A DNA stretch of 64,000 nt from Chloroflexota bacterium (GTDB lineage: Bacteria > Chloroflexota > Anaerolineae > Aggregatilineales > Phototrophicaceae). The position numbers and the translations under genes were made by a program. Of the stretch, positions 12,994 to 63,997 are shown piece after piece; the stretch's first letter is position 1; each line of letters starts with the position of its first letter. The stretch spans positions 1 to 64,000 of the forward strand of contig JACRPS010000007.1 in assembly GCA_016223085.1 (NCBI GenBank). Reading direction: 5' to 3'. The notes below the pieces were generated by a model that worked only from the letters and a program-made list of their open reading frames with translations, had not been told where the DNA came from and made no database searches.

Positions 12994-13002
12994 ATTTACC
13001 TC

Positions 13003-13039: not shown

Positions 13040-13063
13040 TGTCCATCTGCCGCTTGAACGACC

Positions 13064-13228: not shown

Positions 13229-13485
13229 CTGACGCTGTCCTCTCTTCTACCTCGACCGATCATCTCCTGCATTTCATTGATAGTGTATGGTAAAAGCCGG
13301 GCAGTTTCATGAGGTGCGTAGCGGGTTTTTATCTAGGAAACATGGGCGGTTTGGAGGTGGGTCGGAGTGGCGCTGTTAAACACGTAACTGGCCTATAGCT
13401 AAACCCGCCGCCTGCATCATGACTTTGACGGGCAACTATCGTAGCATAAATATGACGCAGGTTGTACCGTAAAAGGAGCAGTACA

Positions 13486-13698: not shown

Positions 13699-13720
13699 CA
13701 TCATCCAGCGTTCAGCAACA

Positions 13721-13750
13721 AAGCCGCCGGCATGTAGCCGGCGGCTTTTT
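13721..13750 (+). terminator. Rho-independent terminator after csbD
   Basis: AAGCCGCCGG and CCGGCGGCTT form a perfect 10-bp stem around a 7-base loop (CATGTAG), followed by TTTG. It lies between csbD and the convergent DUF892 gene. Confidence 0.85.
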
Positions 13751-13786
13751 GTTTGGAATGTTGCTGCCCGGTTGCAGCGGCGGATG

Positions 13787-14281
13787 TTACTGCTTCATCG
13801 CCTCGACATTTACCCGCCCGGCGATCTGTGTCAGCTTCTTGTCAGTCATTTCTTCTTCGTCCAGCGTCTGCTGCAGCAGTTGCGCCGCGTCCTGGTAGCC
13901 AAGCTGGTAGGCATACGTCCGCGCCGAGCCGTAAGCGGCCACCTCATAGTGTTCCACCTTCTGCGCCGAGGCGATCAAGCCGGCATCCAGCACCTGTCCC
14001 TTGGGCTGCTCCTTCATCAGTTCGCTGCCCTCCTCGATCAGTCCCTGCATTCCCTTGCAGGGTACGCGCTGGGCCCGCTTGTTCAGCATCTGAAACACCT
14101 GTTTAAGACGGTTAATCTGTTCTTCCGTCTGGTTCAGGTGCTCCTGGAACGCCGCTTTTAACTCCTCAGATGACGCTGCTTCCACCATCTGTGGCAGCGC
14201 CTCGGTGATCTGGTGTTCCGCATCGTACAAATCCTGGAGCTGATGCAGTAGCAGATCGTTTAGCTCTTTCATCTTCTTCAT
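13787..14281 (-). CDS. DUF892 (YciE/YciF-type) ferritin-like protein
   Basis: A 164-residue helical protein. LNDLLLHQLQDLYDAEHQITEALPQM starts the DUF892 family, which adopts a ferritin-like four-helix bundle with a metal site. Candidate ligands are Glu in YDAEHQ, Glu/His in AAFQEHLNQTEEQ, and HYEVAAYGSA plus LDEEEMTDKKL later on. E. coli relatives YciE and YciF respond to stress; their substrates are unknown. The leftward orientation faces csbD, and both are short stress-type proteins. ATG at 14281 follows GGAGGTATTGTAAGC. Confidence 0.88.
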   Translation of the reverse strand: MKKMKELNDLLLHQLQDLYDAEHQITEALPQMVEAASSEELKAAFQEHLNQTEEQINRLKQVFQMLNKRAQRVPCKGMQGLIEEGSELMKEQPKGQVLDAGLIASAQKVEHYEVAAYGSARTYAYQLGYQDAAQLLQQTLDEEEMTDKKLTQIAGRVNVEAMKQ

Positions 14282-14304
14282 GCTTACAATACCTCCATCT
14301 CCGG

Positions 14305-15279
14305 TTAACGATTGGTGTCAGCCAATGGCATGACAAAACGAGCGACCATCACCGGCAGGTCTGCATAGTTGTCCAGCAGACTCCGGTCAAAATCCGGGTA
14401 CACTGTACCCAGGTCGTTCTCAAAATCAGCATCACCCTGCTGGCGCAGCACGCCAAATACCTGCACCCGCTGCCCATCAGTGATGTTGGCGTCCAGTTCG
14501 GCAGGATTAAACACGATTAGGACACGGGCGTTGTCCACCAGTGCGCCTTCGGACAGGACAAACGTGCCGCCGGTGTTCAGTTCTTCGACCACTCCCTGCA
14601 GCAGCATTTCACGGCCTGCATACGATTCAGGCGTACGGGTGACATCATCCAGATTACCGACAAAGACGATATTGTTGGTCGAGGTCAGTTCGAGAATGGT
14701 GTGGTTTTCATAGCCGGCCAGGGTCGTTTGTGCCAGCAGTTCTGCCAGATCAAGCGGCTGACCCGCCAGACCGGCAGCGGTCGCTTCGGCGGTGGGTTCA
14801 GCAGCAGGGATTTCCGCTTCAACCGTTGCTTCAGCAGTCGCTTCGACACCAATTGCGCCTGCTGCCGCTGTCGCCTCAGCGTTCACGTCAACTCTGTCAT
14901 TCATCTCCGCCCAGGATGGATGCACCACACCTGTGATTTGTACCCGCTGCCCTTCTGTCACCGACAGATCGAAATCCTGGCCGCTGGTATTCACCACCAG
15001 CACCTGATCGTTATCAATCACAGCACCTTCGCCCAGCACCAGCATCTTGACGTTGATGATCGTCTCGATCACCCCTTCCAGGGTGATGGTCTGCCCGTAG
15101 AAGGCTTCCGAGTCGGCGGTCACGTCTTCCAGTGACGTGCTTAACTCCCAGGGGCCAGCTATCCGGTTAAACGGCTCCACTGTCGCTTCGGGCGTGGCTT
15201 CCTGCGCCAGCGTGAAGCCGGAACCGGTCGCCAGCAGCGTCAGCACCAGCGCCGCGCCCAATAACAACTTCACTCGCAT
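14305..15279 (-). CDS. Secreted protein with two OB-like repeats
   Basis: A 324-residue exported protein. A signal peptide (VKLLLGAALVLTLLATGSGFTLAQ) is followed by an ATPEAT linker, then two similar modules of about 100 residues. In each, an ITLEGVIE or MLLQGVVEEL strand, a 'VLVLGEG or FVLSEG' segment, 'xxDNxxVLVV/VLIV' and 'DGQRVQITGV/VQVFGV' repeat in order. This looks like a tRNA_anti-like or NlpE-type OB fold, which is a pattern guess. The modules are joined by an Ala/Glu/Thr-rich spacer (about 145-175). Function is unknown. It ends 23 bases before the DUF892 gene and may share its transcript. Confidence 0.65.
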   Translation of the reverse strand: MRVKLLLGAALVLTLLATGSGFTLAQEATPEATVEPFNRIAGPWELSTSLEDVTADSEAFYGQTITLEGVIETIINVKMLVLGEGAVIDNDQVLVVNTSGQDFDLSVTEGQRVQITGVVHPSWAEMNDRVDVNAEATAAAGAIGVEATAEATVEAEIPAAEPTAEATAAGLAGQPLDLAELLAQTTLAGYENHTILELTSTNNIVFVGNLDDVTRTPESYAGREMLLQGVVEELNTGGTFVLSEGALVDNARVLIVFNPAELDANITDGQRVQVFGVLRQQGDADFENDLGTVYPDFDRSLLDNYADLPVMVARFVMPLADTNR

Positions 15280-50047: not shown

Positions 50048-50560
50048 TTAGGCAACGAATGAGGTCAGGAACTGGACGAGGGAATCAACCGCCGCATCCA
50101 CCGACGCCGACAGCGGTGTATCAAAATCGCACTGCGCTGGCTGAATCAGCACCAGCCAGACGGCGCAGTTCAGTTCATCACTCAAATATTTTGCCAGCAT
50201 ATGCAATGGAAAGGTGTGGGTACTCGCTTCCAAGCCGACGACCTCCTGCCACGACAGGCAGCGGATTGCGCCCGGCTCGGCGTTCATCAGCGCGGCGTCC
50301 ACCAGCAGCACCGTATCCGGCGCAAACCGCCGGAGCGCGCCGGTACAGTTCTCCGGCACGTTGCCGGCATCCAGCACCAGCACATCAACGCGCTTTGCGG
50401 TGGCTTGCAGCCGCCGGGCGATCATTACCCCAGTGGCATCATCGCCGTATAACTCGTTACCAATCCCCAGTAGCGCTAACCGGGAGTGGCCGTCAGGGCA
50501 TATCAACCGCTGGCGGAGGGGCTTTTCCCAGGAGGGGTTCAAGATCGGCTTCGTTTCCAT
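50048..50560 (-). CDS. hycI: [NiFe]-hydrogenase maturation protease (HycI type)
   Basis: A 170-residue protease that clips the C-terminus of the hydrogenase large subunit after nickel insertion. The key motif LLGIGNELYGDDATG holds the acidic residue that binds Ni. A second acidic residue is in VLVLDAGNVPENCTG, and a His sits in THTFPLHMLA. It ends the leftward group 4 operon and fits the large subunit, which has a 28-residue tail after DPCFSCNDR. ATG 50560 would overlap the ferredoxin gene by 68 bases; a TTG at about 50503 is the alternative start and lacks a ribosome-binding site. Confidence 0.85.
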   Translation of the reverse strand: METKPILNPSWEKPLRQRLICPDGHSRLALLGIGNELYGDDATGVMIARRLQATAKRVDVLVLDAGNVPENCTGALRRFAPDTVLLVDAALMNAEPGAIRCLSWQEVVGLEASTHTFPLHMLAKYLSDELNCAVWLVLIQPAQCDFDTPLSASVDAAVDSLVQFLTSFVA

Positions 50561-50909
50561 AATAGACGGTAAACGGCTCGGTGCTGGTTGACGCCAGTTC
50601 CCACTCGCCGCTTGCCATGCTGATGCAGCTAAAACGGCAGTTCTGCACGCACTGCGCGCAGTAGGTACAGCGGTCAGCGTGGTAGCGCATCACAAACTTT
50701 TTGGCTTTCTTGTCAATCGTGATAACCTCAATCGCATCCGATGGGCAGTCCTTCGCGCACAGGCAGCAGCCGGTGCAGTTGTCGGGATTCCAGTGCAGCT
50801 TGCCGCGCAGCCGTTCCGGACTGGCGTTACGTTCAAACGGGTACAGGCGGGTGACGGGCTTCTGGAAAAACGAGCGCAGCGTATCCACCAGCATGGAACC
50901 GATTCTCAT
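50493..50909 (-). CDS. Group 4 hydrogenase ferredoxin subunit (NuoI/EchF/HyfH-like)
   Basis: A 138-residue polyferredoxin with two [4Fe-4S] motifs: CTGCCLCAKDCP (about 44-55) and CTYCAQCVQNC (about 83-93). It matches NuoI, EchF and HyfH, which carry electrons between the catalytic site and ferredoxin. It overlaps the membrane subunit gene by four bases (ATGA). ATG 50909 (MRIGSMLVD) is preferred over the upstream frame, which lies in the membrane subunit gene. In this complex it should receive electrons from reduced ferredoxin. Confidence 0.9.
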   Translation of the reverse strand: MRIGSMLVDTLRSFFQKPVTRLYPFERNASPERLRGKLHWNPDNCTGCCLCAKDCPSDAIEVITIDKKAKKFVMRYHADRCTYCAQCVQNCRFSCISMASGEWELASTSTEPFTVYYGNEADLEPLLGKAPPPAVDMP

Positions 50910-51829
50910 AGCACCATCCCTTTCAGCAGCAGCGTAACCAGCCATTGCAGCAGCACCAGCAGCGTCCCGTAGCGCCACCACAGGCCAACGATCTGATCAA
51001 TCCGCAGCCGGGTCATCAGTGTTTGCACCCCGGCCAGCGCCAGCAGCAGCACGAGTGTTTTGACAATATAATCCAGCTGATTGTGAATCCCACCCAGGTA
51101 GAACGCCGACATCAGCGTTAACCCGGCGATCAGTTCCGCATAGCGCCCCAGGTAAAACAGCGCCAGCCCGCGCCCGCTGTATTCGGTCAGCGCCCCGGCC
51201 ACGATCTCGGTTTCGGCTTCCGGCGCGTCGAACGGGCGCATTTCCAGCTTGCCCATCAGGCCGATCAGCGCGATCACAAACCCGACCGGCTGGAGCAGAA
51301 TTACGGGATGCGTGCTGGAGTAGGCCATGATGTCGCTGATCTTCCAGCTTCCAGCGGCCACTGCCGGCCCCAGCATCGCCAGCAGGAACGGCGCTTCGTA
51401 GGAGAACAACTGCGTCAGGGTGCGGGTCGCGCCCACCAGCGAAAAGCGGTTATTGGTATTCGCGCCCGCGATGCCGGTACACAGCGTCAGCATACTGAAC
51501 AGATAAACCGCGACGATCAGATCGCCGGAAAAGCTGTACGATGGCTGCAAGCCCGCAATCGGCAGGTACAAAGCACCGGTTAACACCCCGGCCAGCGCCA
51601 CAATTGGCAGCCACACAAACAGGCGGGCATTCACGCTTTCCGGCACAACTTCTTCTTTTGCCAGCAGCTTCAGCAGGTCGGCCAGGGGTTGAAACCAGCG
51701 CGGCCCAACCCGGTTTTGCAACCGGGCAACCAGCTTGCGGTCGGCCCACTCGTACACCATACCGTTTGCCAGCACAAACAGCCCGCCGGGGAAAATCAGC
51801 AGGATAAACAGGGTTTTCAGGACATCCAT
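50906..51829 (-). CDS. Membrane subunit NuoH/EchB/HyfC-like
   Basis: A 307-residue polytopic protein with about eight helices. Markers are QNRVGPRWFQPLADLLKLLAKEE (the loop that contacts the catalytic module), FSLVGATRTLTQLFSYEAPFLLAMLG, and MRPFDAPEAETEIVAGALTEYSG (the conserved acidic loop in NuoH and HyfC). It should link H2 chemistry to ion movement at the inner membrane. ATG 51829 follows the large subunit stop at 51831 after one base. It resembles a group 4 hydrogenase HyfC more than a quinone-binding NuoH only by context. Confidence 0.9.
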   Translation of the reverse strand: MDVLKTLFILLIFPGGLFVLANGMVYEWADRKLVARLQNRVGPRWFQPLADLLKLLAKEEVVPESVNARLFVWLPIVALAGVLTGALYLPIAGLQPSYSFSGDLIVAVYLFSMLTLCTGIAGANTNNRFSLVGATRTLTQLFSYEAPFLLAMLGPAVAAGSWKISDIMAYSSTHPVILLQPVGFVIALIGLMGKLEMRPFDAPEAETEIVAGALTEYSGRGLALFYLGRYAELIAGLTLMSAFYLGGIHNQLDYIVKTLVLLLALAGVQTLMTRLRIDQIVGLWWRYGTLLVLLQWLVTLLLKGMVL

Positions 51830-51830
51830 C

Positions 51831-53021
51831 TCACTTGTTCTCCTGATGCGCCAGCCGGCGCTGCCGCAGCGATTCCCAGGTGACCAGCGCCCCCGCCGCG
51901 TCCCGTACCGCTACCGTCCGGTCGTTGCAGGAGAAACACGGGTCAATCCCGGCCAGAATCATCGGCATATCCGCCAGTTGGTGGCCGACCGCCGTCGCCA
52001 CCACCGACCCCATGTTACATAGCGTCGGCGTCCGCACCTTAATCCGTTCCGGGTTATCGCTGCCGTTGCTTTTGATGAAATAAAACGCCTCACCGCGCGG
52101 CGCTTCCACCCGGCTGATGGTTTCCCCCGCCTTGATTTTGCGCGGCATTCTTGTTTGTAGTTCGCCCGGCGGCAGCTTATCAATTACTTCGTGGATGAGG
52201 CGGTAGCTTTCAAACAGTTCCTTAATCCGCACCACAAACCGCGCCTCCAGATCGCCCGCCTCCGCCAGCACGATTTGCACCGGGAAATCGGCGTAGGCCG
52301 CGTATGGCGCTTCGATACGAATATCCCGCGCCACGCCGGACGCCCGCGCCGTCGGCCCGACCACGCCCAGCCGTTCAGCTACCTCCTTGCTCATCGTGCC
52401 CACGCCGCGTGTGCGCTGTAAAAACACCTCGTCAGTCGTGACAACGTTCAGGTAGTGGCGCGACCGTTCTTCCAGAAAATCCACACCTTTGAGGATGGCG
52501 CTGGCGAGATCGGGTGTCACGTCACACTTGACGCCGCCGAGGATATTGGCGGAATAATTCACGCGGTTGCCGGTGAAACTTTCCAGCAGGTCCATCACGG
52601 TTTCGCGGTCGCGCCAGCTATACATAAACAGCGTATCAAACCCGGCTTCGTGCGCGGCCACGCCCAGCCACAGCAGATGGCTGTGAACCCGTTCCAGTTC
52701 CGCCACCAGCACACGGATCGCCTGCGCGCGCGGCGGGACTTCCGCCCCGGCCAGTTTTTCCACCCCCAGACAGTACGTCATCGCGTGGACGTGCGAGCAA
52801 ATGCCGCAGATGCGTTCCAGCAGATACAGGCTTTGCGTCCAGTTGCGGCTCTCGACGGCCTTCTCAATCCCGCGATGTGCGTAGCCTAGCCGCACCGTCG
52901 CGCCGGTCACGATCTCGCCATCCACGGTAAATTCAAAGTGTCCCGGCTCCTTGAGCGCCGGGTGCTGCGGGCCAATCGGGACGACAAATCGTTTTTTATC
53001 CTGCACGACCGCTTCACTCAT
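51831..53021 (-). CDS. Group 4 [NiFe]-hydrogenase large (catalytic) subunit
   Basis: A 396-residue protein in the NuoD/HycE family. Unlike NuoD it keeps both nickel-binding pairs: Cys72 and Cys75 in ERICGICSHVHAM, and Cys362 and Cys365 in DPCFSCNDR. The H2-binding NiFe(CN)2CO site is therefore expected. A 28-residue tail follows DPCFSCNDR, as in HycE, and should be removed by the HycI-type protease encoded two genes down. Like other group 4 enzymes it should make or use H2 with ferredoxin. It overlaps the NuoC-like gene by 8 bases. Confidence 0.95.
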   Translation of the reverse strand: MSEAVVQDKKRFVVPIGPQHPALKEPGHFEFTVDGEIVTGATVRLGYAHRGIEKAVESRNWTQSLYLLERICGICSHVHAMTYCLGVEKLAGAEVPPRAQAIRVLVAELERVHSHLLWLGVAAHEAGFDTLFMYSWRDRETVMDLLESFTGNRVNYSANILGGVKCDVTPDLASAILKGVDFLEERSRHYLNVVTTDEVFLQRTRGVGTMSKEVAERLGVVGPTARASGVARDIRIEAPYAAYADFPVQIVLAEAGDLEARFVVRIKELFESYRLIHEVIDKLPPGELQTRMPRKIKAGETISRVEAPRGEAFYFIKSNGSDNPERIKVRTPTLCNMGSVVATAVGHQLADMPMILAGIDPCFSCNDRTVAVRDAAGALVTWESLRQRRLAHQENK

Positions 53022-53490
53022 TACCCTGCTCCTTCACGCCGCGTTCCAGTACCGCATCCTTCCGCAGCGGATATACGTCATCCGGCCAGTCATCTGCCAG
53101 AAACAGGCGGCTGTTATCCGGCGTCCCGACGACCTGAATCCCCATCATTTCCACCAGTTCGCGCTCGAACACGCTGGCCGAGGGGATAAGCGGGCAAACA
53201 CTCGGTACGGACGCCGAAGCGCGCGGCGTGGCGACCCGCAGTGTCAGCACCGCCGCGCCTTCGCAGAAGTGATACAGCACTTCAATCTGACCCGCCTCGA
53301 CACCCAGATCAAGGCCGGTGATGGCGGACAGATAACCCCAGCGCGCGCCGATCAACGCCTCAATGGCGGCGATTAAATTCTGGGCGGCCACGCCAACATC
53401 CAGCCGGTTCGGTTCGGGTGACTGGGTGTCGCCCGCCCAGGACGCTAACACCTGCTGCGCCGCTTGCAGCCGTTCTTCCGGCGATGTCAT
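53014..53490 (-). CDS. NuoC/EchD-like subunit
   Basis: A 158-residue soluble protein of the complex I 30-kDa (NuoC) family. It has LSAITGLDLGVEAGQIEVLYHFCEGAAVLTLRV and the family end SASVFERELVEMMGIQVVGTPD, plus RLFLADDWPDD followed by PLRKD. In hydrogenases the same domain is EchD or the N-terminal part of HycE. It lies between the small subunit gene (4-base overlap) and the large subunit gene (8-base overlap), in the usual B-C-D order. It should help join the catalytic subunits. Confidence 0.9.
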   Translation of the reverse strand: MTSPEERLQAAQQVLASWAGDTQSPEPNRLDVGVAAQNLIAAIEALIGARWGYLSAITGLDLGVEAGQIEVLYHFCEGAAVLTLRVATPRASASVPSVCPLIPSASVFERELVEMMGIQVVGTPDNSRLFLADDWPDDVYPLRKDAVLERGVKEQGNE

Positions 53491-53969
53491 ACAATTTCCT
53501 CCTGCGGCGGCTGTTTGGCCGGTTGCAGTTTGCCCAGCAGCTTCACCACGCCGTCAATAATCGCTTCCGGGCGCGGCGGACAGCCCGGCACGTAAACATC
53601 TACCGGAATGACCTCATCCACATGGCCGACCACGTTGTAGCAGCCCTGGAATGCCCCGCCGGAAATGGCACACGAGCCAACCGCGATCACAAACTTGGGT
53701 TCGGGCATCTGCTCATACACGCGCAGCAAACGGTCGCGTGCCTGGAGTGTCACCGGCCCGGTGCAGATCAATACATCCGCATGGCGCGGGCTGCCTTGCA
53801 ACTTGATGCCAAATCGCTCCACGTCATAACGCGGCGTCAATGTCGCCAGGATTTCGATATCACAGCCGTTGCACGAGCCACTATTGAAGTGAATCACCCA
53901 GGGCGAATTCAGCCTTGCCCAGGTTTTCACCCGGTCTAATACTTCGTTCCATGTCTTACCGAAGTCCAT
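53487..53969 (-). CDS. Group 4 [NiFe]-hydrogenase small subunit (NuoB/EchC/HyfI-like)
   Basis: A 160-residue iron-sulfur protein. The proximal [4Fe-4S] ligands are in FNSGSCNGCDIEILATL (two Cys), VGSCAISGG and VPGCPPRPEAII. This is the short, single-cluster small subunit of group 4 hydrogenases and complex I. It passes electrons from the ferredoxin subunit to the NiFe site. It precedes the NuoC-like gene with a four-base overlap. Upstream it is separated from the NuoA-like gene by a long inverted repeat. Confidence 0.93.
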   Translation of the reverse strand: MDFGKTWNEVLDRVKTWARLNSPWVIHFNSGSCNGCDIEILATLTPRYDVERFGIKLQGSPRHADVLICTGPVTLQARDRLLRVYEQMPEPKFVIAVGSCAISGGAFQGCYNVVGHVDEVIPVDVYVPGCPPRPEAIIDGVVKLLGKLQPAKQPPQEEIV

Positions 53970-53990
53970 TATGGTTCACCCTTATCCTTA

Positions 53991-54075
53991 ACCCCTCCCC
54001 CGTCCCCTCCCCGAATTCGGAGAGGGGTGCAAGTGCTGTGTTTTCTCCCCTCTCCGAATTCAGGGGTGAGGGGGT
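53991..54075. repeat. Long imperfect inverted repeat inside the group 4 hydrogenase operon
   Basis: GAATTCGGAGAGGGG (54013-54027) and CCCCTCTCCGAATTC (54047-54061) are perfect 15-base arms with a 19-base loop. C-rich and G-rich outer flanks extend the pairing partly to 53991-54075. It fills the gap between the NuoA-like and small subunit genes. Unlike the GTAGGGG family it is built of CCCCTC units. Confidence 0.8.
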
Positions 54076-54079
54076 CGCT

Positions 54080-54391
54080 TCACCCCAGAATCAGCGCCAG
54101 CAGCGCCGCGCCCAATCCTGCCAGATACACCCCCTCGATGCCCGTCAGGCTGCCGCTGCCCAGCACCAGCACGCCCAGATGCAGCACCGCAAAAAACAGC
54201 GCCACGCGGAAAAACGGTTTGTAACCCGGCGCGGCCAGATGCTGCGCCGCTTCCTCACCGCTGCCGTAGGTGCTGCGCTTCAGCGGCGAATCAGGCGCGT
54301 TCGGCGCGAGCGATTTGCCGAACCGGGACAATATTCCGACCAGCACGAGGTAGATCAGGAACGCAATCGGAGGCGCGAGTAAAATCTCCAT
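54080..54391 (-). CDS. NuoA-like membrane subunit
   Basis: A 103-residue membrane protein with about three helices. It shows PIAFLIYLVLVGILSRFGKSLAP, the conserved loop KRSTYGSGEEAAQHL of the NuoA family and YKPFFRVALFFAVLHLGVLVL with an acidic-poor C-terminal helix. NuoA is a hallmark of complex I; most group 4 hydrogenases described as Hyc/Hyf/Ech lack it. ATG 54391 has AGGAGG 6 bases upstream. Upstream is the NuoN-like gene with 10 bases between. Confidence 0.8.
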   Translation of the reverse strand: MEILLAPPIAFLIYLVLVGILSRFGKSLAPNAPDSPLKRSTYGSGEEAAQHLAAPGYKPFFRVALFFAVLHLGVLVLGSGSLTGIEGVYLAGLGAALLALILG

Positions 54392-54401
54392 GTTTATCCT
54401 C

Positions 54402-55883
54402 CTATCCACCAAACGCGGCCAGCAGACCGGCGCTGGCCGGCTGCGTCAGCCACGTCAGCGCGTCCGGCCACAGGCCGACCAGCAGCAGCGCCGCCGCCAG
54501 AACAATGATGGGTATGATGATCGCCAATGGCAGCGTCCGCCCACGTTCGATCAGCGCCGACGGCGTTTCGCGGAACAGAACGTTGATGACCGGCAGGTAA
54601 TACGCCAGCGACAGCACACTGTTGAGCGCCGCGACGATCACCAGCAGCGTAATCAGGCTTTCGCCCGTGCCCACCCCGGCGACAAAGATTTGCCACTTCG
54701 ACATAAACCCGGCCAGGGGCGGCACGCCCCCCAGGCTGAGGAGCGCCAGCGTCAGCGCCAGCGCCAGCAGCGGGTAACGCCGCGCCGCGCCGGAAAGATC
54801 GTCAATTTTGAGCGCATGTTCGTTGCCGTTGATGCGCCCCGCCGCGTACAGCAGCGCCCCGGCACAGAAGAACGCCAGCCCTTTCATCAGGCCGTGATTC
54901 AGCAGATGGAACAGGCCGCCCTGCAGGCCGGAACTTTCACCGACGTACAATCCCACGCCCAGGCCAAACAGGATGTAACCGATCTGGCTCATGCTGGAAT
55001 ACGCCAGCAGCCGTTTCAACTCCCGCTGGCGCAGCGCCAGCAGATTGCCCGTGAAGATATTAAGGACGCCGAACAGCATCAGTGCCGCGCTCCACGACAG
55101 CGTAAACCCGGCCAGCGCCGCCAGTGCCCGCAGCAGCGCGATCAGCCCCGCTTTGGTGACGACGCCGGACAGCACCGCGCTGACCGGGCTGGGTGACTGG
55201 CTGTAGGCATCCGGCAGCCAGGTATGCAGCGGCACGATGGCGATTTTGACGCCGAAGCCGATCAGGAACAGCACGCCGGCCACCAGCAGCAGCGGCGACG
55301 TTCCTGCCGCGCGGATTGCGTCCAGATCAAGCGCGCCGGTCTGCGCCAGCACCAGCGCGATGCCCAGCACGACCAGCACCGAGCCAACCGCGCTCTGCAC
55401 CAGATACTTGACGGCGGCTTCCAGCGATGCGCTTTTTTCACGGTAGAACACCACCAGCAGATACGACGCGACCACCATCGCCTCGAACCACACCCACAGG
55501 TTAAACAGATCGGCGGCGCAGGCCAGGCCGATCATCGTGCCGGTCAGCGCCAGTAGCAGCGCATAATATTTTTCCTCGCCTGTCTTCCCGGCCATGTATG
55601 GCCCGGAGAAAATCACCGCCAGCGTGCCCAGCGCCAGCGCCAGCGCCGCGAACAGCAGGCTCAGTCCGTCTACGCGGAAGACGATGCCCTCCAGCCGAAA
55701 CTCGACCGGCGCGGTGTAGTCCCGCACGACCAGCGCGAACACCAGCCACGCGCCGAGCAGCGCCAGCAGGCTGATGGTGCGCGCCAGCGCCGTCTGGCGC
55801 GGCAGCAGCCGCCCGGCGAAATACGTCAGCGGCGACGATACCAGGGGCAGAACGATCAAACTAACGGGTATCACGGTGTTCAT
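54402..55883 (-). CDS. Antiporter-like membrane subunit (NuoN/HyfB/MrpD-like)
   Basis: A 493-residue proton-conducting subunit with about 14 helices. Key charged residues are Glu in WVWFEAMVVASYL, Lys in GFGVKIAIVPLHTWLPDAYSQSP, His/Lys in FHLLNHGLMKGLAFF, and the YSSMSQIGYI segment. It should pump ions as one of two antiporter-like units of this hydrogenase. Whether it is a NuoM or NuoN relative needs a tree. It overlaps the NuoL-like gene by four bases. Confidence 0.9.
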   Translation of the reverse strand: MNTVIPVSLIVLPLVSSPLTYFAGRLLPRQTALARTISLLALLGAWLVFALVVRDYTAPVEFRLEGIVFRVDGLSLLFAALALALGTLAVIFSGPYMAGKTGEEKYYALLLALTGTMIGLACAADLFNLWVWFEAMVVASYLLVVFYREKSASLEAAVKYLVQSAVGSVLVVLGIALVLAQTGALDLDAIRAAGTSPLLLVAGVLFLIGFGVKIAIVPLHTWLPDAYSQSPSPVSAVLSGVVTKAGLIALLRALAALAGFTLSWSAALMLFGVLNIFTGNLLALRQRELKRLLAYSSMSQIGYILFGLGVGLYVGESSGLQGGLFHLLNHGLMKGLAFFCAGALLYAAGRINGNEHALKIDDLSGAARRYPLLALALTLALLSLGGVPPLAGFMSKWQIFVAGVGTGESLITLLVIVAALNSVLSLAYYLPVINVLFRETPSALIERGRTLPLAIIIPIIVLAAALLLVGLWPDALTWLTQPASAGLLAAFGG

Positions 55884-57781
55884 ACACCCCTCCCGATAGC
55901 GACGATAAGCAGTAGAATCGCCAGCCCGGCTACAATTCCGGCCACGTTCCAGTTGAGTTGGCCGGTCTGCGTCCGGCGTACCGCTTCCGCCACCCGTTCG
56001 GTCGCCCGCCCTAGCGCCAGGCCCGCGCCGTCCACCGCCGTTTTGTCGAAAGTGGCGATCAGGCGCGAAAGTGTGTTATACGGGCCGATAAACAGCCGTT
56101 CGTACAGTTCATCTACCCACCAGCGGCGGTTGAGCGCGGTAAACAGCGCGCTTTGCAGTGGGTCGCGTTCGCCCGCCGGCTGCCGACCGTACCGCCAGTA
56201 CGCCAGCAGAATGCCCAGCAGCGCCAGCACCGTTGAAATTCCGGCGACGGTCGCGTTAAACACGCCTGCTTCGGCTTCGTGCGTGGTATGTTCCAGCCAG
56301 CCGCCCAGCGTGTGCTGCCCCGGCAGATTCAACGCGCCACCGACAACCGACAGCGCCGCCAGCACGATCAGCGGCACGAGCATGATTCGCCCGCTGTCAT
56401 GCGCGTGATGGGCAGCATCGCTGCGACCACGCCCGAAAAACACCAGGAACGCCTGCCGCGCGATGTAGAACGCGGTCAAAAAGGCCGTGATCGTCAGCAA
56501 AACGTAGATGACAGGCCGGTGTTCAAACGCTGCCGTCAGAATTTCGTCTTTGGAGAAAAACCCGGCCAGCGGCGGTAGTCCCGCCAGCGCCAGCGCCCCG
56601 GCCAGATACGTCCAGAATGTGACCGGCATTCTGCCGCGCAGACCGCCCATGTGACGCATATCCTGCGCGTCGAATTTCGCCGTGTGCGCGCCGTGCGCGA
56701 CGCCGTGAATGACGGACCCGGCGGCCATAAACAGCAGCGCCTTAAAAAACGCATGAGTAACCAGGTGGAACATGCCGGCGGTGTACGCACCCAGGCCAAC
56801 CGCCGCCACCATAAAACCAAGCTGGCTGATGGTCGAATAGGCCAGCACGCGCTTGATGTCAAACTGCCCAACCGCGATGCTCGCCGCCAGCAGCGCGGTG
56901 CACGTGCCGACGACGGCCACCACGTCCTGCGTGAACGGCGCCAGCGTGAACAGCGGCGCGGCACGGACGATCAGGTACACACCTGCTGTGACCATCGTCG
57001 CAGCGTGGATGAGCGCCGATGCTGGCGTTGGGCCGGCCATCGCATCCGGCAACCACACAAACAGCGGAATCTGCGCGCTCTTGCCGGTGACGCCCAACAG
57101 CAGCAGCAGCGTTATCAGCGTTGCCAGCGGCGCGCCGACGGCCAGCGACTTTTCCGCCGTGCCAAACACGTCAGCGAAGTTGAGCGAACCAAACGCCCAG
57201 AACAGCGCAAACATCGCCAGCAGCAGACCGGCATCGCCAATCCGGTTGGCGATCATGGCTTTACGGGCAGCGTTACTGTTGCGCCAGCCTTCGCCGCCGC
57301 TTTTATCAAACCAGAAGCCAATCAGCAGGAACGAACACAGCCCCACGCCTTCCCAGCCGACAAACAGCAGCAGGAAGTTATCCGCCGTCACCAGCAGCAG
57401 CATCGCCGCCAGGAACAGGTTGAGATAGACAAAAAAACGCGCAAACCGCGCATCGCCCTGCATATAACCAATCGAATAGGCGTGGATGAGCGTGCCCACG
57501 CCGGTGACAACCAGCATCATCGTGACCGAGAGCGTATCTACCCGGAAGGCCCATGCGACTTGGAAGCTGCCAATCGTTATCCAGTTACCCAGGCTAACAA
57601 CCGCGCCTTCCGGTTCAGCTTGAAGCGCGATCAACAGCAGCACCGCGACGGCAAAGGCCAGCCCCGCCGCAAGGGTGGCGACGATACCGGCCTGCGGTCC
57701 GCGCAGGCGTTTGCCCAGCGCCAGATTGACCAGCAGTCCCGCGATGGGTAACGCGATCACCAACGGAACGAGATTAAACAT
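55880..57781 (-). CDS. NuoL-like membrane subunit
   Basis: A 633-residue antiporter-like protein with the extra C-terminal part of NuoL. It has LLLFVGWEGVGLCSFLLIGFWF, GKSAQIPLFVWLPDAMAGPTPASALIHAATMVTAGVYL, YSTISQLGFMVAAVGLGAYTAGMFHLVTHAFFKALLFMAAGSVIH and a C-terminal long helix region (about 560-600). The length equals that of NuoL, which carries the lateral helix. It follows a 126-base gap holding a palindrome, and its start has AGGGAG upstream. Confidence 0.93.
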   Translation of the reverse strand: MFNLVPLVIALPIAGLLVNLALGKRLRGPQAGIVATLAAGLAFAVAVLLLIALQAEPEGAVVSLGNWITIGSFQVAWAFRVDTLSVTMMLVVTGVGTLIHAYSIGYMQGDARFARFFVYLNLFLAAMLLLVTADNFLLLFVGWEGVGLCSFLLIGFWFDKSGGEGWRNSNAARKAMIANRIGDAGLLLAMFALFWAFGSLNFADVFGTAEKSLAVGAPLATLITLLLLLGVTGKSAQIPLFVWLPDAMAGPTPASALIHAATMVTAGVYLIVRAAPLFTLAPFTQDVVAVVGTCTALLAASIAVGQFDIKRVLAYSTISQLGFMVAAVGLGAYTAGMFHLVTHAFFKALLFMAAGSVIHGVAHGAHTAKFDAQDMRHMGGLRGRMPVTFWTYLAGALALAGLPPLAGFFSKDEILTAAFEHRPVIYVLLTITAFLTAFYIARQAFLVFFGRGRSDAAHHAHDSGRIMLVPLIVLAALSVVGGALNLPGQHTLGGWLEHTTHEAEAGVFNATVAGISTVLALLGILLAYWRYGRQPAGERDPLQSALFTALNRRWWVDELYERLFIGPYNTLSRLIATFDKTAVDGAGLALGRATERVAEAVRRTQTGQLNWNVAGIVAGLAILLLIVAIGRGV

Positions 57782-57907: not shown

Positions 57908-58213
57908 TTAACCCCGCAGGGTCGAAAGTTCGTTTACGTCCAGCGAACCGAAGCGCCGCCGCACCTGCACCGCCAGCGCCAGCCCAACCACCGCCACCAC
58001 CGTGTCGGCGACGATCAGCGTGACGGCCACGCTCTGCCCCAGGTTGGTCTGGCCGCTGATCGCGCCTGCCGCCACCAGCGCCAGAATCGCGCCCTTGCCC
58101 AGGATTTGCAGCGCGATGACGATCTTGATGAGATTGCGCATGATAAGCAGGCCGTACAACCCGACGCCGAGCAGCACCAGCGCCCCGGCGATGGCGATAT
58201 TTAACGAGGTCAT
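57908..58213 (-). CDS. NuoK/MnhC-like membrane subunit
   Basis: A 101-residue three-helix protein: LNIAIAGALVLLGVGLYGLLIMRNLIKIVIALQILGKGAILALVAAGA is the NuoK/MrpC pattern. Conserved Lys residues sit in helix 1-2 and the second helix. It overlaps the NuoJ-like gene by four bases (ATGA). In place of the two Glu found in NuoK helices 2 and 3, Lys and Asp (VADTVVAVVGLALAV) are visible, as in MnhC/HyfE-type proteins. It forms part of the proton path. Confidence 0.88.
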   Translation of the reverse strand: MTSLNIAIAGALVLLGVGLYGLLIMRNLIKIVIALQILGKGAILALVAAGAISGQTNLGQSVAVTLIVADTVVAVVGLALAVQVRRRFGSLDVNELSTLRG

Positions 58214-58761
58214 GCCAGCTCCTTCTCCGGTTCGACAATCTCCGTAACAAGTTCCGGCGTTACATCTTCAACCATATCGGCGGTCTGAACGCCGGGTGTC
58301 GCGGGGCGTTTTTCGTCTGCCAGTATGCCCAGCACACCCAGCACCCCGGCGAAGATCAACACAATCTGCACCAGAACGTCCGCGCCGCGATTCTGCCACA
58401 GCAGTGTCCCGAACGGTGACTCACCCGTTACCGGTTGCTCGATGAGCGGCAGCGCCAGCCATGCAATAGCGACCACCGACACACCGACCAGCGCCAGCGC
58501 CAGCGGTCGCGAGATGAGCGATTTCAGCGGAGTCAGGTCTTCGCCCGCCATGCTGATCGCAAACACAAACAGCACGGTGACGAGTCCCGCGCCAACGCTG
58601 AGTTCGATAACCGCAACTTCATGAGCGCCCAGCCAGTAGAGGAGAAGCGCCACCAGCGCGCTCACACCCGCCAGCCAGATCGCGGAAACAAGTAGCCGCG
58701 CGGCGCGAACAGCCTGAACAGCGCACAGGACAGCGACGATCAATAAAGCCAGTGGTAACAT
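58210..58761 (-). CDS. NuoJ/MnhB-like membrane subunit, first gene of the group 4 operon
   Basis: A 183-residue membrane protein with five or six helices. It has LLPLALLIVAVLCAVQAVRAARLLVSAIWLAGVSALVALLLYWLGAHEVAVIELSVGAGLVTVLFVFAI, the NuoJ-type start with Glu in HEVAVIELSVGAG, followed by further helices and a charged tail. AAGGAG lies upstream of ATG 58761. Being first in the leftward operon, its promoter must lie in the 189-base region shared with the hydrogenase operon on the other strand. Confidence 0.85.
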   Translation of the reverse strand: MLPLALLIVAVLCAVQAVRAARLLVSAIWLAGVSALVALLLYWLGAHEVAVIELSVGAGLVTVLFVFAISMAGEDLTPLKSLISRPLALALVGVSVVAIAWLALPLIEQPVTGESPFGTLLWQNRGADVLVQIVLIFAGVLGVLGILADEKRPATPGVQTADMVEDVTPELVTEIVEPEKELA

Positions 58762-58842
58762 CTTAAAATAATCACTCCTTTATCTAAACTGACTGTACCC
58801 CCTGTACCCCCCATCAAACAGTGAAAAACAGCATATGACAGG

Positions 58843-58856
58843 ATGATGTTTATCAT
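58843..58856. promoter_or_regulatory. FNR-like palindrome between the hydrogenase operons
   Basis: ATGAT-GTTT-ATCAT has the same five-base half-site and four-base gap as the FNR consensus TTGAT-N4-ATCAA, with one mismatch per half. It lies four bases before the CRP-type site. Its role in oxygen or redox control is inference. Confidence 0.6.
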
Positions 58857-58859
58857 TAC

Positions 58860-58877
58860 TTGTGACATATTTCACAA
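58860..58877. promoter_or_regulatory. Perfect CRP-type palindrome between the hydrogenase operons
   Basis: TTGTGA-CATATT-TCACAA has perfect 6-bp arms and carries the CRP core half-sites TGTGA and TCACA with a six-base gap. It lies between two divergent hydrogenase operons, about 75 bases before HydB and 100 bases before NuoJ, so a CRP/FNR-family regulator could control both. Confidence 0.8.
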
Positions 58878-58950
58878 TTTATCCTGTAGTTTAGCAGATG
58901 TTTGGAAAAGGGCATGGCTCATACAATCGAGTGTAGGAGGAATAGACATT

Positions 58951-60093
58951 ATGGCCTTACAGTCTTTTTTTCGTGACTCTCCCCCTCTCGTCCTCGAACA
59001 GCAGCATTTTCAGGCCCTGCTGGACGCCCTCCGCGCGCGCGGCTACCGCCTGATCGGGCCAACGGTGCAGGATGACGCGGTGGTTTACGACGACGTGGAG
59101 TCCGTAGACGACTTCCCCACCGGCTGGATGGACACGCAGTCCGGCGGCACGTACCGCCTGGAAAGCGGCGGGGGTGAAACCCTGTTCGGGTACACCGCCA
59201 GCCCGCAGTCGTGGAAGCGCTACCTGCACCCGCCGGTGCTGGAACTGTGGAAGGCGCTTCGCACCAACGGCACCTACCGCGTTGCTTCCGCCGACCCCCC
59301 GCCCCGCCTCGCCTTCATCGGCGTCCGCCCCTGTGAACTTCATGCCATCGCCATTCAGGATAAAGTGTTTCTGCACAGCGAGTTTGTTGACCCCCACTAC
59401 CAGGCCCGCCGCGACAACGTGTTTATCGTCGCCGTGAATTGCGGGCAGGCAGGTGGCACCTGTTTTTGTGTCTCGATGAACACCGGCCCGAAGGCCGCCG
59501 CCGGCTTTGACCTGGCGCTAACAGAAGTAGTAGATGGCGATCTGCACTATTTTCTGGTCGAAGTCGGTTCGGAACGCGGCGCGGACGTGATGCGCGACCT
59601 GCCCCACCGGCCTGCCGGCGAAGGGGAAATCGAAGCCGCTGACGCAATCCTGACCAATACTGCCGCCAGCATGGGGCGCGAACTGGACACCAACGGCCTG
59701 AAAGAACTGCTGTACCGCAGCTACGAAAGCCCGCGCTGGGACGAAGTGGCGGCGCGCTGCCTGACCTGTGGCAACTGTACCCAGGTCTGCCCGACCTGCT
59801 TCTGTACCACCATCGAAGACGTAACCGACCTGACTGGCTCGGAGGCTACTCGCGTTCGCAAGTGGGATTCGTGTTTCACGATGGATTTCTCCTACATTCA
59901 CGGCGGCAGCATCCGGTACTCGGCCAAATCGCGCTACCGCCAGTGGATGACTCACAAGCTGGCAACCTGGGTAGATCAGTTTGGTTCGTTTGGTTGTGTG
60001 GGTTGCGGACGGTGCATTACCTGGTGCCCGGTGGGGATTGACATCACCGAAGAAGCGCAGGCGATCCGTGACGGCAGCGGCGCAGCGAAATGA
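58951..60093 (+). CDS. hydB: Group 3b hydrogenase beta subunit (HydB-like, two [4Fe-4S])
   Basis: A 380-residue iron-sulfur protein of the sulfhydrogenase/HydB type. Late in the sequence are [16 protein letters not shown] and [14 protein letters not shown], each a [4Fe-4S] site. The first half ([38 protein letters not shown]) matches the beta subunit of group 3b [NiFe]-hydrogenases. It carries electrons between the hydrogenase module and the flavin subunit. ATG 58951 is preceded by TAGGAGG 10 bases away. It is the first gene of the rightward operon. Confidence 0.9.
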
Positions 60094-60101
60094 GGTGAAA
60101 C

Positions 60102-60554
60102 ATGCAGACCTTTGCCGAAATACTGAAAGAAACCCGGTTCTTCAAAGACCTCAACCCTGAATACATCGAACTCCTGGCCGGGTGCGGTAGCAATGCGCGG
60201 TTTGACCCCGGTGACTACATTTTTAAGGAAGGCGGCGACGCTGATACGTTCTACCTCATCCGGCACGGGCAGGTGGCGCTGGAAGTCCACGACCCGCGGC
60301 GCGGGCAGATCGTGGTGGACACTCTGCATGAGGACGACATCCTCGGCTGGTCGTGGCTGTTTCCACCCTACAAGTGGCACTACAGCGCCCGCGCCATGAG
60401 CCTGACACGCGGCGTGGCGATGGATGGCAAATGCCTGCGCGGCAAGTGCGACATGGACACCGCCCTCGGCTATGAACTGATGAAACGTTTTGCCGTCATC
60501 ATGGTGGACCGCTTGCAGGCCACCCGACTACAGGTGTTAAACATTTATGGTTGA
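60102..60554 (+). CDS. Cyclic nucleotide-binding domain protein without HTH
   Basis: A 150-residue protein covering only a cNMP-binding (CAP_ED) beta-roll: [50 protein letters not shown] through [21 protein letters not shown], with a short C-terminal helix. There is no DNA-binding domain. The usual phosphate-binding cassette (GExA...RTA) is altered to [18 protein letters not shown], so nucleotide binding is uncertain. Such proteins are frequent partners of group 3b hydrogenases. It sits between HydB and HydG genes and is likely part of the complex or a sensor. Confidence 0.75.
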
Positions 60555-61407
60555 ACAACTTCTCACCCAACCCCGGACGACAACCGACCCGATGCTGCCG
60601 AATCTGTTCCGCATCCATCGGGTGCTCAAAGAATCGTACGACACCTTCACGGTTGAACTCGTCTCGCTCGAAGGTTATCAGACGTTCCCGTTCGCGCCAG
60701 GGCAGTTTAACATGCTCTACGTCTTCGGCGTCGGGGAGATTCCCATCTCCATCAGCGGCGACCCGCTGCACCCGGAAACGCTGGTGCATACTACCCGCGC
60801 CGTTGGCACGGTCACGAAGGCCATGCGTGAGCTGAAACCGGGCGACGTGATCGGCGTGCGCGGCCCGTTTGGCAGTGCCTGGCCGGTGAAGGAAGCGCGG
60901 GGCGCGGACGTGGTGTTTGTGGCGGGCGGCATCGGCCTCGCCCCGCTACGCTCGTCGCTCTATCACATCCTGTCCCAGCGCGAGAAATACGGCAAGATCG
61001 TGCTGCTGTACGGCTGCCGCAGCCCGGAGGACATCCTGTTCCGCAAGGAACTGGAGAAATGGCGTGCCCGCTTCGACCTCGAAATCTTCGTTACGGTGGA
61101 CTATGCCAACAGCCGCTGGCATGGCAACGTCGGCGTCGTCACCAAACTGATTCCGAAAGCGCCGTTTGACCCGCTGAACACGGTGGCGATGGTGTGCGGG
61201 CCGGAAGTGATGATGCGCTTCACCGCCATCGAACTGGTCAAGCGCGGCGTCAACCCGGAAAACGTCTACCTCTCGATGGAGCGCAACATGAAGTGCGCCG
61301 TCGGCTTCTGCGGCCACTGCCAGTTCGGGCCAACGTTTATCTGCAAAAACGGCCCGGTTTATCCCTACAGCCAGATTCAAAGCTGGCTCTCGATGTGGGA
61401 GGTCTAA
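60547..61407 (+). CDS. hydG: Group 3b hydrogenase gamma subunit (HydG-like FAD/NAD(P) reductase)
   Basis: A 286-residue reductase of the ferredoxin-NADP reductase family. The FAD-binding barrel includes [25 protein letters not shown], the NAD(P) part has [18 protein letters not shown], and the C-terminus binds [2Fe-2S] ([21 protein letters not shown]). It exchanges electrons with NAD(P)H. It overlaps the cyclic-nucleotide-binding gene by 8 bases and precedes the small subunit with GGGAGG near its stop. Confidence 0.93.
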
Positions 61408-61409
61408 CG

Positions 61410-62204
61410 ATGCAGCGCGATCATAAACCCAAACTCGCCGTCTGGAAATTTGCCTCCTGCGATGGCTGCCAGCTCAGCATACTGGACTGTGAAGATGAAC
61501 TTCTGGCTGTCGCCGGGGAAGTGGACATCGCCTATTTCCCTGAAGCGACCCGCGCCGTCGCGCGCGGCCCGTATGACGTGTCGCTGGTGGAAGGTTCGAT
61601 CACCACCGAACACGACGCCGAACGGATTCACCAAATTCGCAAACAGTCGAAATTCCTGGTCACGATTGGCGCGTGCGCTACATCCGGCGGAATTCAGGCG
61701 CTCCGCAACTTCAGGGACGTAGACCAGTTGGTCAAGGCTGTTTACGCCACGCCCGGTTACATTGATACGCTGGATAAGTCCACGCCGATTGCCGACCACG
61801 TGTTTGTGGACTTCCAACTGCGCGGCTGCCCGGTCAATAAATACCAGTTGGTGGAAGTCCTTAGCGCCTATCTGAACGGGCGCAAACCGAACACCCCCTC
61901 GTACAGCGTGTGTGTCGAATGCAAGCAGCGCGGCACAACCTGCGTCATGGTGGCGCAGGGCACGCCCTGTATGGGGCCGGTCACACACGCCGGCTGCAAC
62001 GCGCTCTGCCCGGCTTACAATCGGGGCTGCTTCGGCTGCTTCGGCCCGATGGAAACACCGAATACCGCCGCGCTCAGCGCGTGGTGGCAAAAACTGGGCA
62101 TGAACGCCCCGGACATCGTGCGTGCTTTCCGTACCTTCAACGCCTATGCCGATGCGTTCCGAAAGGAGAGCGAGGTCTATGAACATCCGCACCATCAAGG
62201 TTGA
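61410..62204 (+). CDS. hydD: Group 3b [NiFe]-hydrogenase small subunit (HydD-like)
   Basis: A 264-residue iron-sulfur subunit. Proximal-cluster ligands are in [25 protein letters not shown] and [13 protein letters not shown]. Further Cys-rich motifs at the C-terminus ([38 protein letters not shown]) bind additional [4Fe-4S] clusters, as in group 3b. It relays electrons from the NiFe site to HydB. ATG 61410 has GGGAGG 6 bases upstream. It overlaps the large subunit gene by 26 bases, so they are translated together. Confidence 0.93.
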
Positions 62205-63468
62205 TATGCTCGCCCGCGTCGAAGGCGAAGGCGGCCTGCACGTCAAAATCAAAAATGACCGCGTGGCCGATGTGAAGCTGAAAATCTTCGAGCCGCCGCG
62301 TTTCTTCGAGGGCTTCCTGCGCGGGCGTAAGTTCACCGAAGCGCCGGACATCACCGCCCGCATCTGCGGCATCTGTCCCGTCGCCTACCAGATGAGCAGC
62401 GTCCACGCGATGGAGCGTGCGCTCGGCGTTGTTGTGGACGGCCAACTCCGCGCGCTGCGGCGGTTGCTGTACTGCGGCGAGTGGATTGAAAGCCACGCGC
62501 TGCACGTTTACCTGCTGCATACGCCGGACTTCCTGGGCTACCCGGACGCTATTCAACTGGCGAAGGTGTATCCCGACGTGGTCAAAAACGGGCTGGAACT
62601 GAAGAAGCTCGGCAATGACATTGTGAACCTGGTCGGCGGGCGCGAGATTCACCCGATTAACGTGCGCGTCGGCGGCTTCTACAAAGCTCCGACTCCACGG
62701 CAGGTGCGCGAATTGGGCCAACGGCTGACTGCTGCCCGAACGCTGGCGCAGGAGATGGTGCGGTTTACCGCCGGTCTGCCCTTCCCGGAATTCGAGCAGA
62801 ACTACGAGTTTGTCGCGCTGCGCCATCCCGACGAATACGCCATCAACGAGGGGCGGCTGGTGTCGAATCGCGGGCTGGATATTGACATCGCCGAGTACGA
62901 GGCCAATTTCGCCGAGGAACACGTCCAGCATACAACCGCGCTGCAATCAGTCATCAAAGCGCGCGGCGCGTACTTCGTCGGCCCGATGGCACGCTATAAC
63001 CTGAACTTTGACCAGCTTGACCCGGACATCCGGGCGTTGGCCTGCGAAGTCGGTTTAGAGCCGCCGGTGAACAATCCGTTTAAGAGCATCGTCATCCGCA
63101 GCCTGGAAACGCTGTACGCGGTCGAAGAAGCGTTACGCATCATCGAAGCCTACGAGATACCGGTCAGACCGTTTGTTGATGTGACCCCCGGCGTGGGTGT
63201 GGGCTGGGGCTGCACCGAGGCGCCGCGCGGCATCCTCTATCACCGCTACACCCTGGACAAAGACGGCCTGATCGTGGACGCGAAGATCGTGCCGCCCACA
63301 TCGCAGAACCAAAAGACGATTGAGGGTGATCTATGGCATTTCGTCGAAAAAGCGGTTGACCTGCCCGACGACCGCCTGACCTGGCAGTGCGAGCAGGCCA
63401 TCCGCAACTATGACCCGTGTATCTCCTGTTCCGTTCACTTCATTAAACTGGACATCGAACGGGAATAG
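62179..63468 (+). CDS. hydA: Group 3b [NiFe]-hydrogenase large subunit (HydA-like)
   Basis: A 429-residue catalytic subunit. The first nickel ligand pair is in [20 protein letters not shown] (about 55-75), the second in DPCISCSVH (about 412-420). A short tail FIKLDIERE follows and should be cut after His by the adjacent protease. Catalyses H2 oxidation or proton reduction, coupled to NAD(P)(H) through HydB and HydG. The start ATG 62179 has GAGG and AGGAG upstream. It ends before a palindrome and the protease gene. Confidence 0.95.
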
Positions 63469-63514: not shown

Positions 63515-63997
63515 ATGACTCCTTTACCCCTCATCATCATCGGTATCGGCAACGACTGGCGCGGCGACGATGCTGCCGGGCTGCTGGCCGCGCGCGCGCT
63601 GCGCAAACTAAATCTACCCAACGTCACCATCACCGAGCACGGTGGCGACGGCGCGAGTTTGATGCAGACATGGGCAGGTGCGGCGGTGGTCATCCTGATT
63701 GATGCGGTATCAGCCGGTGGCAATCCTGGCACGATTTACCGGATAGACGCGAACCATGAAACCACTGCCCCGGATTCGTTTAGTACGTCCAGCCACCTGC
63801 TCGGCGTGGGGGAGGCGGTCGAACTGGCGCGGGCGCTGGGCCAACTCCCGCCGCGTCTGGTCATCTTTGGCATCGAAGGCCGTGATTTTGCGGTCAATGC
63901 GGCGCTGTCCCCGGCGGTTGCCGCGAACCTGCCCGTCCTGGTCGAACGCATCGTTCAGGAAATATTGAATGGGACAAATGACAGGCTAAGTCTGTGA
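63515..63997 (+). CDS. [NiFe]-hydrogenase maturation protease (HyaD/HoxW-like)
   Basis: A 160-residue protease. IGIGNDWRGDDAAGLLAAR carries the first acidic Ni-contact residue, VVILIDAVSAGG the second, and SSHLLGVGEAVEL the conserved His. It should clip the HydA tail after nickel insertion. It is the last gene of the rightward operon that can be seen, and the coding sequence is complete before the window edge. It is clearly different from the HycI-type protease in the other hydrogenase operon (about a quarter identical by eye). Confidence 0.88.
   Translation: MTPLPLIIIGIGNDWRGDDAAGLLAARALRKLNLPNVTITEHGGDGASLMQTWAGAAVVILIDAVSAGGNPGTIYRIDANHETTAPDSFSTSSHLLGVGEAVELARALGQLPPRLVIFGIEGRDFAVNAALSPAVAANLPVLVERIVQEILNGTNDRLSL

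Follow-up and report, generated by a model that had tools for sequence, protein, structure and literature searches.

Two [NiFe] hydrogenase operons diverge from 189 bases of DNA in a Chloroflexota bacterium, raising the question of whether a regulatory site between them governs one or both, and which protein would recognize it. The operons lie within the window, the whole 64,000-nucleotide stretch analysed, in a 6.0-Mb genome of 37 contigs; we refer to this genome as G000, and to the family genomes and loci compared with it by G- and L-numbers. A first-pass annotation had placed a group 4 operon to the left and a group 3b operon to the right of positions 58762–58950, and gene calls together with the nickel motifs confirm this arrangement.

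The leftward operon begins at 58761 and encodes a group 4-type [NiFe] hydrogenase, with complex I-like subunits and both CxxC nickel motifs. Its genes are:

58210–58761, minus strand: NuoJ/MbhD-like subunit, first gene (PF00499, PF13244)
57908–58213, minus strand: NuoK-like subunit (PF00420)
55880–57781, minus strand: NuoL-like antiporter subunit (PF00361, PF00662; NCBIfam subunit L above cut-off)
54402–55883, minus strand: second antiporter-like subunit (PF00361)
54080–54391, minus strand: small NuoA-like membrane subunit (weak PF00507, E 0.013, below cut-off)
53487–53969, minus strand: NuoB-like small subunit (PF01058)
53014–53490, minus strand: NuoC-like subunit (PF00329)
51831–53021, minus strand: group 4 [NiFe] large subunit with CGIC and DPCFSC (profile and motif)
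50906–51829, minus strand: NuoH-like subunit (PF00146)
50493–50909, minus strand: NuoI-like ferredoxin subunit, start approximate (profile search)
50048–50560, minus strand: HycI-type maturation protease of the group 4 operon (PF01750)

The nearest solved sequences to the large subunit are those of MBH (6cfw) and formate hydrogenlyase (7z0s). With its NuoA-like, NuoJ/K/L/B/C/D/H/I-like and second antiporter subunits, the predicted complex is strikingly complex I-like for an enzyme with both nickel motifs. PF00507 recurs in 10 of 12 homologues of the NuoA-like subunit, at E-values up to 1, and the gap between the NuoA-like and NuoB-like genes (approximately 53986–54080) holds a G+C-rich, inverted-repeat-like spacer (CCCTCTCCGAATTCGGGGAGGGG, minus strand).

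The rightward operon, called from an ATG at 58951, encodes a group 3b-type [NiFe] hydrogenase, assigned from its sulfhydrogenase-type beta, gamma, delta and alpha subunits, which do not reach the NCBIfam equivalog cut-offs:

58951–60093, plus strand: 3b beta subunit (PF17179)
60102–60554, plus strand: stand-alone cyclic-nucleotide-binding-fold protein with no DNA-binding domain, HoxI-like (profile; available part of PMC12319191)
60547–61407, plus strand: 3b gamma subunit, NAD-binding (profile)
61404–62204, plus strand: 3b delta (small) subunit (profile)
62179–63468, plus strand: 3b alpha (large) subunit, carrying CGIC and DPCISC (start picked by eye)
63515–63997, plus strand: HycI-type protease of the 3b operon (profile)

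HypA- and HypB-like genes lie just past the window end (L045), and the best named record for the beta protein is from an Aggregatilineales metagenome-assembled genome (L047, 81% identity). The protein at 60102–60554 has a homologue at most of the 80 named 3b loci surveyed, which span many phyla, and C28, C111 and C116 are invariant in 14 aligned homologues. We liken it to HoxI by description and gene context: HoxI, the NADPH-activation subunit of the Cupriavidus soluble hydrogenase, is likewise a small protein encoded with its hydrogenase (PMC3702609, as excerpted), and the cyclic-nucleotide-binding-domain protein of a methanotroph Hyd-3b cluster is named HoxI in the available part of PMC12319191.

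The leftward ATG (58761) and the rightward ATG (58951) are separated by the 189 bases, within which we recognize the following:

58793–58810, no strand: two exact CTGTACCCC units (58793–58801 and 58802–58810), in the predicted leftward leader
58820–58825, minus strand: −10-like hexamer TTCACT, prediction only
58843–58856, no strand: ATGATGTTTATCAT, the FNR-type palindrome of the first-pass annotation (from sequence)
58860–58877, no strand: 18-bp palindrome TTGTGACATATTTCACAA, probable Rex operator (conservation and published consensus)
58922–58927, plus strand: −10-like hexamer TACAAT, 44 bases past the 18-bp box, prediction only
58935–58940, plus strand: AGGAGG ribosome-binding sequence ahead of the 3b beta gene (from sequence)

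Both palindromes and the two 9-base units had been described earlier and are present, with three bases between the palindromes. Six genomes have the divergent layout (G000, G015, G013, G004, G017 and G049); among them the CTGTACCCC tandem is not conserved, G015 having one imperfect unit, and we set it aside as incidental. A mechanical open reading frame begins at 58843 and would lengthen the beta gene at its N-terminus, but we rejected placement of the palindromes inside such an extension given that in G004 (L012) the frame is closed by a stop codon 36 bases before the start; the window box is intergenic despite that frame. The predicted rightward TACAAT is kept in five of the six divergent genomes (absent in G049), and the leftward hexamer reads TACACT in four of the five other genomes and TTCACT in G015. 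Relative to these predictions the box lies at about −64 for the 3b promoter and about −55 for the group 4 promoter (the latter placed by hand), and simple occlusion of the core promoter is therefore not evident here; at predicted promoters, the box overlaps the −35 in some relatives only (L017, L018, L022 and L023). Its distance to the predicted −10 is consistent leftward and variable rightward.

To what extent is the box kept at 3b promoters? The beta protein was sought in 98 family genomes and matched in 20, of which 15 are close orthologues; a fragment with no upstream sequence (L027) and a locus representing the same gene as L028 (L030) were left out. A TTGTGA-N6-TCACAA box with no more than one mismatch in its 12 specified positions lies within 220 bp of the start in 13 of the 15 orthologous 3b operons, against 0.02 expected by Markov resampling of the same sequences, although the 13 genomes are related and hence not independent. 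The remaining two orthologues, in G016 and G007, have Rex and the 3b operon and no box. Five more distant family loci include three with the box (L025, L026 and L029) and two without (L024 and L028), and a divergent group 4 neighbour is no requirement for the box, as L018 and L022 show. We also surveyed named loci, the best 80 of 533 relatives and from many phyla, of which 78 had usable upstream sequence (all but L088 and L091; 103 bases only for L105). A box with one mismatch or fewer occurs in five of the 78, all Chloroflexota and four of them repeating loci of the family set; other Chloroflexota loci in the survey do not have one (L048, L075, L086, L093 and L118), and two-mismatch boxes occur in three loci of non-Chloroflexota groups (L051, L066 and L112). 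Because boxes of one mismatch or fewer are confined to Chloroflexota among the named loci, the 18-bp box is a lineage-restricted feature of the 3b promoter. The hypD promoters were considered as extra targets and rejected, with such a box in one of 12 hypD loci (1.5-kb flanks).

A genome-wide motif search, which had been proposed for both palindromes, recovers both patterns at little above shuffled expectation. TGTGAN6TCACA is found once in the 64 kb (0.06 expected from shuffles) and nine times in the genome, against about 5.6 scaled from the window shuffles and one for the reversed control; WTGATN4ATCAW is found once in the 64 kb (0.17 expected), and the FNR-type pattern 25 times in the genome, against about 16 expected from shuffles and none for the reversed control. 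With scaled expectations this close to the numbers found, single-genome counts are weak evidence, and conservation decides. The counts would suit an explanation of the palindromes by chance or by the structure of AT-rich intergenic DNA, but the box at 13 of 15 orthologous promoters contradicts chance for the 18-bp box, and we find this explanation scarcely credible.

The smaller palindrome fares differently. The FNR consensus is TTGAT-N4-ATCAA, and the window palindrome reads ATGAT..ATCAT. Only G000 and G015 have it as a perfect palindrome, and its right half is lost in the other four of the six divergent genomes (G013, G004, G017 and G049); moreover, 14 of the 15 inspected matches, from the 25 in the genome, fall inside mechanical reading frames, and the seven Crp/Fnr-family regulators, read by eye, show no FNR-like cysteine cluster. 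We consequently rejected a genuine FNR-type oxygen-responsive site as a working explanation on counts, frame location and non-conservation, and consider it very unlikely; the FNR-type label given by the first-pass annotation is not the best one. That annotation had staked its reading on a CRP/FNR-family protein in the genome and on conservation of both palindromes: CRP-family proteins exist and the 18-bp box is conserved, but the FNR-like palindrome is not. All six divergent genomes carry (T/G)GA-N6-TCA exactly 18 bases ahead of the leftward TACACT/TTCACT hexamer. In the window this element coincides with ATGATGTTTATCAT, and the combined TGA-N6-TCA and hexamer pattern, a single match in the 64 kb, is present in the five other divergent genomes. 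We suggest that ATGATGTTTATCAT is better read as a weak TGA-N6-TCA element of a putative leftward promoter or its regulator.

Which protein, then, would recognize the 18-bp box? It contains an exact TGTGAN6TCACA core, so the CRP-core match reported earlier stands, but CRP is not the best label, the box being a published operator of Rex, a repressor that senses NADH/NAD+. TTGTGACATATTTCACAA matches 13 of the 14 specified bases of the general Rex operator TTGTGAANNNNTTCACAA, with one off (excerpts of PMC5317091 and PMC6391272); the Staphylococcus aureus Rex operator is given as TTGTGAAW4TTCACAA (PMC2883068, in part), and TTGTGA-N6-TCACAA is described as a Rex-like box in the available text on Calderihabitans (PMC7306483). 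On the consensus and its conservation, we think it reasonably probable that the 18-bp box is a Rex operator, forming a redox switch over the 3b operon that is probably shared with the group 4 operon. There is one rex match in the window genome, at about 201 kb on contig C22 (G000:C22), scoring 282 bits to NCBIfam NF003995 against a cut-off of 126, and seven of the eight solved sequences (PDB) listed for it are named Rex. The Rex helix-turn-helix (HTH) family is matched in 91 of the 98 family genomes and in seven not at all, and the match is weak or partial in G017, G027 and G097. G017 has the box and the operons, yet no convincing Rex match in a genome that is 85% complete, which counts against Rex.

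The rex loci themselves carry related sites. Of 42 rex loci, 28, including that of the window genome, have an exact copy of the half-site TTTCACAA or TTGTGAAA no more than 140 bp ahead of the Rex HTH, against 0.36 expected from resampled sequences; the other half is poor, and the site often reads NTGNGTNNTCTTTCACAA. Base counts at these sites hold by construction, the lines having been chosen for having a half-site. The arrangement looks like autoregulation with one weak half. At the 3b promoters, the base before TGTGA in 12 distinct boxes is T in 23 of 24 halves, which is partly built into the search. The base after TGTGA is not built into it, and is A in 14 halves, T in 4, C in 5 and G in 1, compared with A 40, T 53, C 40 and G 13 at 73 other TGTGAN6TCACA places (Fisher P 0.009 for A versus T, kinship ignored). 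The 73 places are among the matches listed for G000–G008 (9 of 17 for G008); they exclude the window box and the 3b box of G006 and retain repeats of one sequence, and many of them may lie in genes. The 3b boxes prefer A, the Rex-type base, next to TGTGA, and the 73 other places do not.

The window genome as a whole has 20 copies of TTGTGAN6TCACAA at one mismatch or fewer (reversed control, four), and of the 15 inspected, 10 are intergenic by mechanical calls, or 11 with the window box. Two such boxes belong to a divergent P450 and formate/nitrite transporter gene pair, one between the genes and one overlapping the transporter's mechanical start; they lie 118 bp apart at G000:C33:25431–25566 (L046). 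Two boxes at a formate/nitrite transporter gene start count for Rex, which binds upstream of nirC in S. aureus (PMC2883068, as excerpted). Others are near an ArsR-type gene before a multihaem cytochrome gene, a methyltransferase gene, glycyl- and prolyl-tRNA synthetase genes, a wax-ester synthase gene and several unknowns. The transporter and cytochrome fit a Rex or anaerobic regulon, and most of the other box-linked genes are uninformative. An identical 18-mer, TTGTAAAAAGTTTCACAA, is present at G000:C4:59065 and G000:C12:60119, one copy ahead of the prolyl-tRNA synthetase gene.

The serious rival to Rex is a CRP homologue whose recognition helix is CRP-like. A GlxR/Rv3676-type global regulator of the CRP family, with a ligand other than or beyond cAMP, would account for the exact TGTGAN6TCACA core, and we give it a real but clearly smaller chance than Rex. 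The genome has 16 cyclic-nucleotide-domain matches, seven of which also match the Crp HTH family, and the candidate is a 232-aa protein of the L130 type (G000:C17:278192–278887) whose recognition helix TTREVVGR aligns with ASRETVNK of the best PDB chains. We take PDB entries 4byy, 4cyd and 3d0s to be GlxR/Rv3676-type CRP proteins with the target TGTGAN6TCACA; the local system has in common with them the core motif and the Arg-Glu recognition helix, and differs in that the pocket residues are not kept in the homologue and the flanks of the window box are Rex-like. TGTGAN6TCACA occurs at 1.88 per Mb in the 59 of 98 genomes with an orthologue (called at E ≤ 1e-40) versus 0.34 in the 39 without, and the reversed-pattern control gives 0.28 and 0.13, respectively. 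Density does not track rex across genomes, and the counted pattern is not Rex-specific. In genus g22, 33 of 34 genomes match Rex and all but G062 have zero to three such places, and G062 has the CRP orthologue and 28. Density follows the L130-type CRP homologue and not Rex, which we count as the strongest evidence against Rex and for a CRP-type regulon at large, but taken together those places do not have the base preference of the 3b boxes. The correlation is largely that of one genus (g22), with kinship ignored, and G040 and G060 are without the orthologue yet have nine and eight places.

Also against a CRP-family reading are the Rex-type inner base of the 3b boxes and the finding of no box of one mismatch or fewer at 25 loci of the regulator's own gene. 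In the pocket alignment to 4cyd/4byy/3r6s (FGELSIFDPGPRTSSAV versus FNEVAAVDGGPNPFNAV), the Gly, Arg and Ser of GlxR-type chains, which we take to be cAMP-contact residues, are replaced. cAMP is therefore doubtful as a signal for the 232-aa protein even though seven matches to class III cyclase domains exist in the genome, and the cyclic nucleotide offered by the first-pass annotation as a signal is not borne out by its best CRP-type candidate. Tandem Crp/Fnr-family regulators are encoded at G000:C18, approximately 13000–14500 (L044, L128 and L129), beside TGTGACCCAAGTCACA and TGTGACCTAAATCAC, and TGTGACCCAAGTCACA recurs next to their homologues in G004, G006 and G007; these TGTGACC-type boxes are unlike the hydrogenase box and were set aside. 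It is also conceivable that Rex and a CRP-family protein recognize overlapping sequence and compete. The box satisfies both consensuses and both proteins are encoded, but we regard dual control as unlikely, if less so than an FNR site. Rex remains the preferred reading of the 18-bp box.

The extent to which a Rex operator would also serve the group 4 operon depends on how the two operons are paired. Twelve genomes have both, counting close orthologues, and in 10 of these the operons are side by side in one of three layouts: divergent in the six genomes given above, 3b followed by group 4 in G010 and G035, and group 4 followed by 3b in G016 and G024. G028 and G038 have both operons, on broken or short contigs, and in G026 and G033, which have group 4, the sole 3b homologue is distant and lies on a different contig. 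Among the 10 non-divergent group 4 operons compared (G043, G005, G037, G059, G026, G016, G024, G028, G010 and G035; contigs of G033 and G038 end before the first gene, and these were left out), two have a box of one mismatch or fewer within 320 bp, centred about 60 bp before the start in G043 and 231 bp before it in G059, and eight have none within that distance. Because the box lies between both promoters and a similar box precedes some non-divergent group 4 operons, the group 4 operon probably shares its control. Of the shared switch proposed in the first-pass annotation, control over 3b is thus upheld by a strong phylogenetic footprint, and control over both operons is only probable. More tentatively, and with odds that we put below even, the ferredoxin-type group 4 and the NAD(P)-type 3b enzyme may be a fixed pair in this family, with the Rex operator and the weaker leftward element forming a bidirectional NADH-gated switch in the divergent layout.

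We infer repression as the effect because Rex represses elsewhere. At low NADH, Rex with NAD+ would sit on 58860–58877 and hold the 3b operon down, and the same operator would probably limit the group 4 operon too; rising NADH would release Rex, such that an over-reduced cell makes its hydrogenases. On the more tentative reading of a bidirectional switch in the divergent layout, both H2 routes would open together in such a cell.

Known systems share parts of this arrangement. In Calderihabitans maritimus KKC1, a motif search placed boxes before cooS2-ech1, hyd-3b, kor, fdh, nap and three mhc genes, so that TTGTGA-N6-TCACAA-like boxes are likewise predicted before group 4 and 3b clusters, but these are in several transcriptional units and the available part of the paper mentions no shared divergent intergenic region (PMC7306483). 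In Caldicellulosiruptor bescii, Rex likewise acts on NiFe (Ech) hydrogenase genes: the Ech operon is in the table of Rex sites, and repression of the NiFe hydrogenase structural genes is described with gel-shift tests and a rex deletion; the excerpted text concerns group 4 and FeFe enzymes and mentions no 3b operon (PMC6391272). Rex control of a CODH/ECH operon has also been predicted (PMC13077300, in part). In S. aureus, Rex controls nirC and fermentation genes, so that a formate/nitrite transporter gene is a target, as may be the case here, and the word hydrogenase is absent from that paper (PMC2883068, as excerpted). Across the titles and abstract openings covered, which represent the literature in part, none describes a switch of CRP/FNR or Rex type that group 4 and 3b operons have in common.

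If the box is a Rex operator, the reach of NADH/NAD+ sensing by Rex would come to include the paired hydrogenases of a Chloroflexota lineage represented here mostly by metagenome-assembled genomes, and a tempting mis-assignment would be corrected, in that TTGTGA-N6-TCACAA resembles a CRP site but is a Rex operator; motif-only CRP/FNR annotation of hydrogenase promoters would therefore need a check for rex. The finding would also predict when these bacteria make or use H2.
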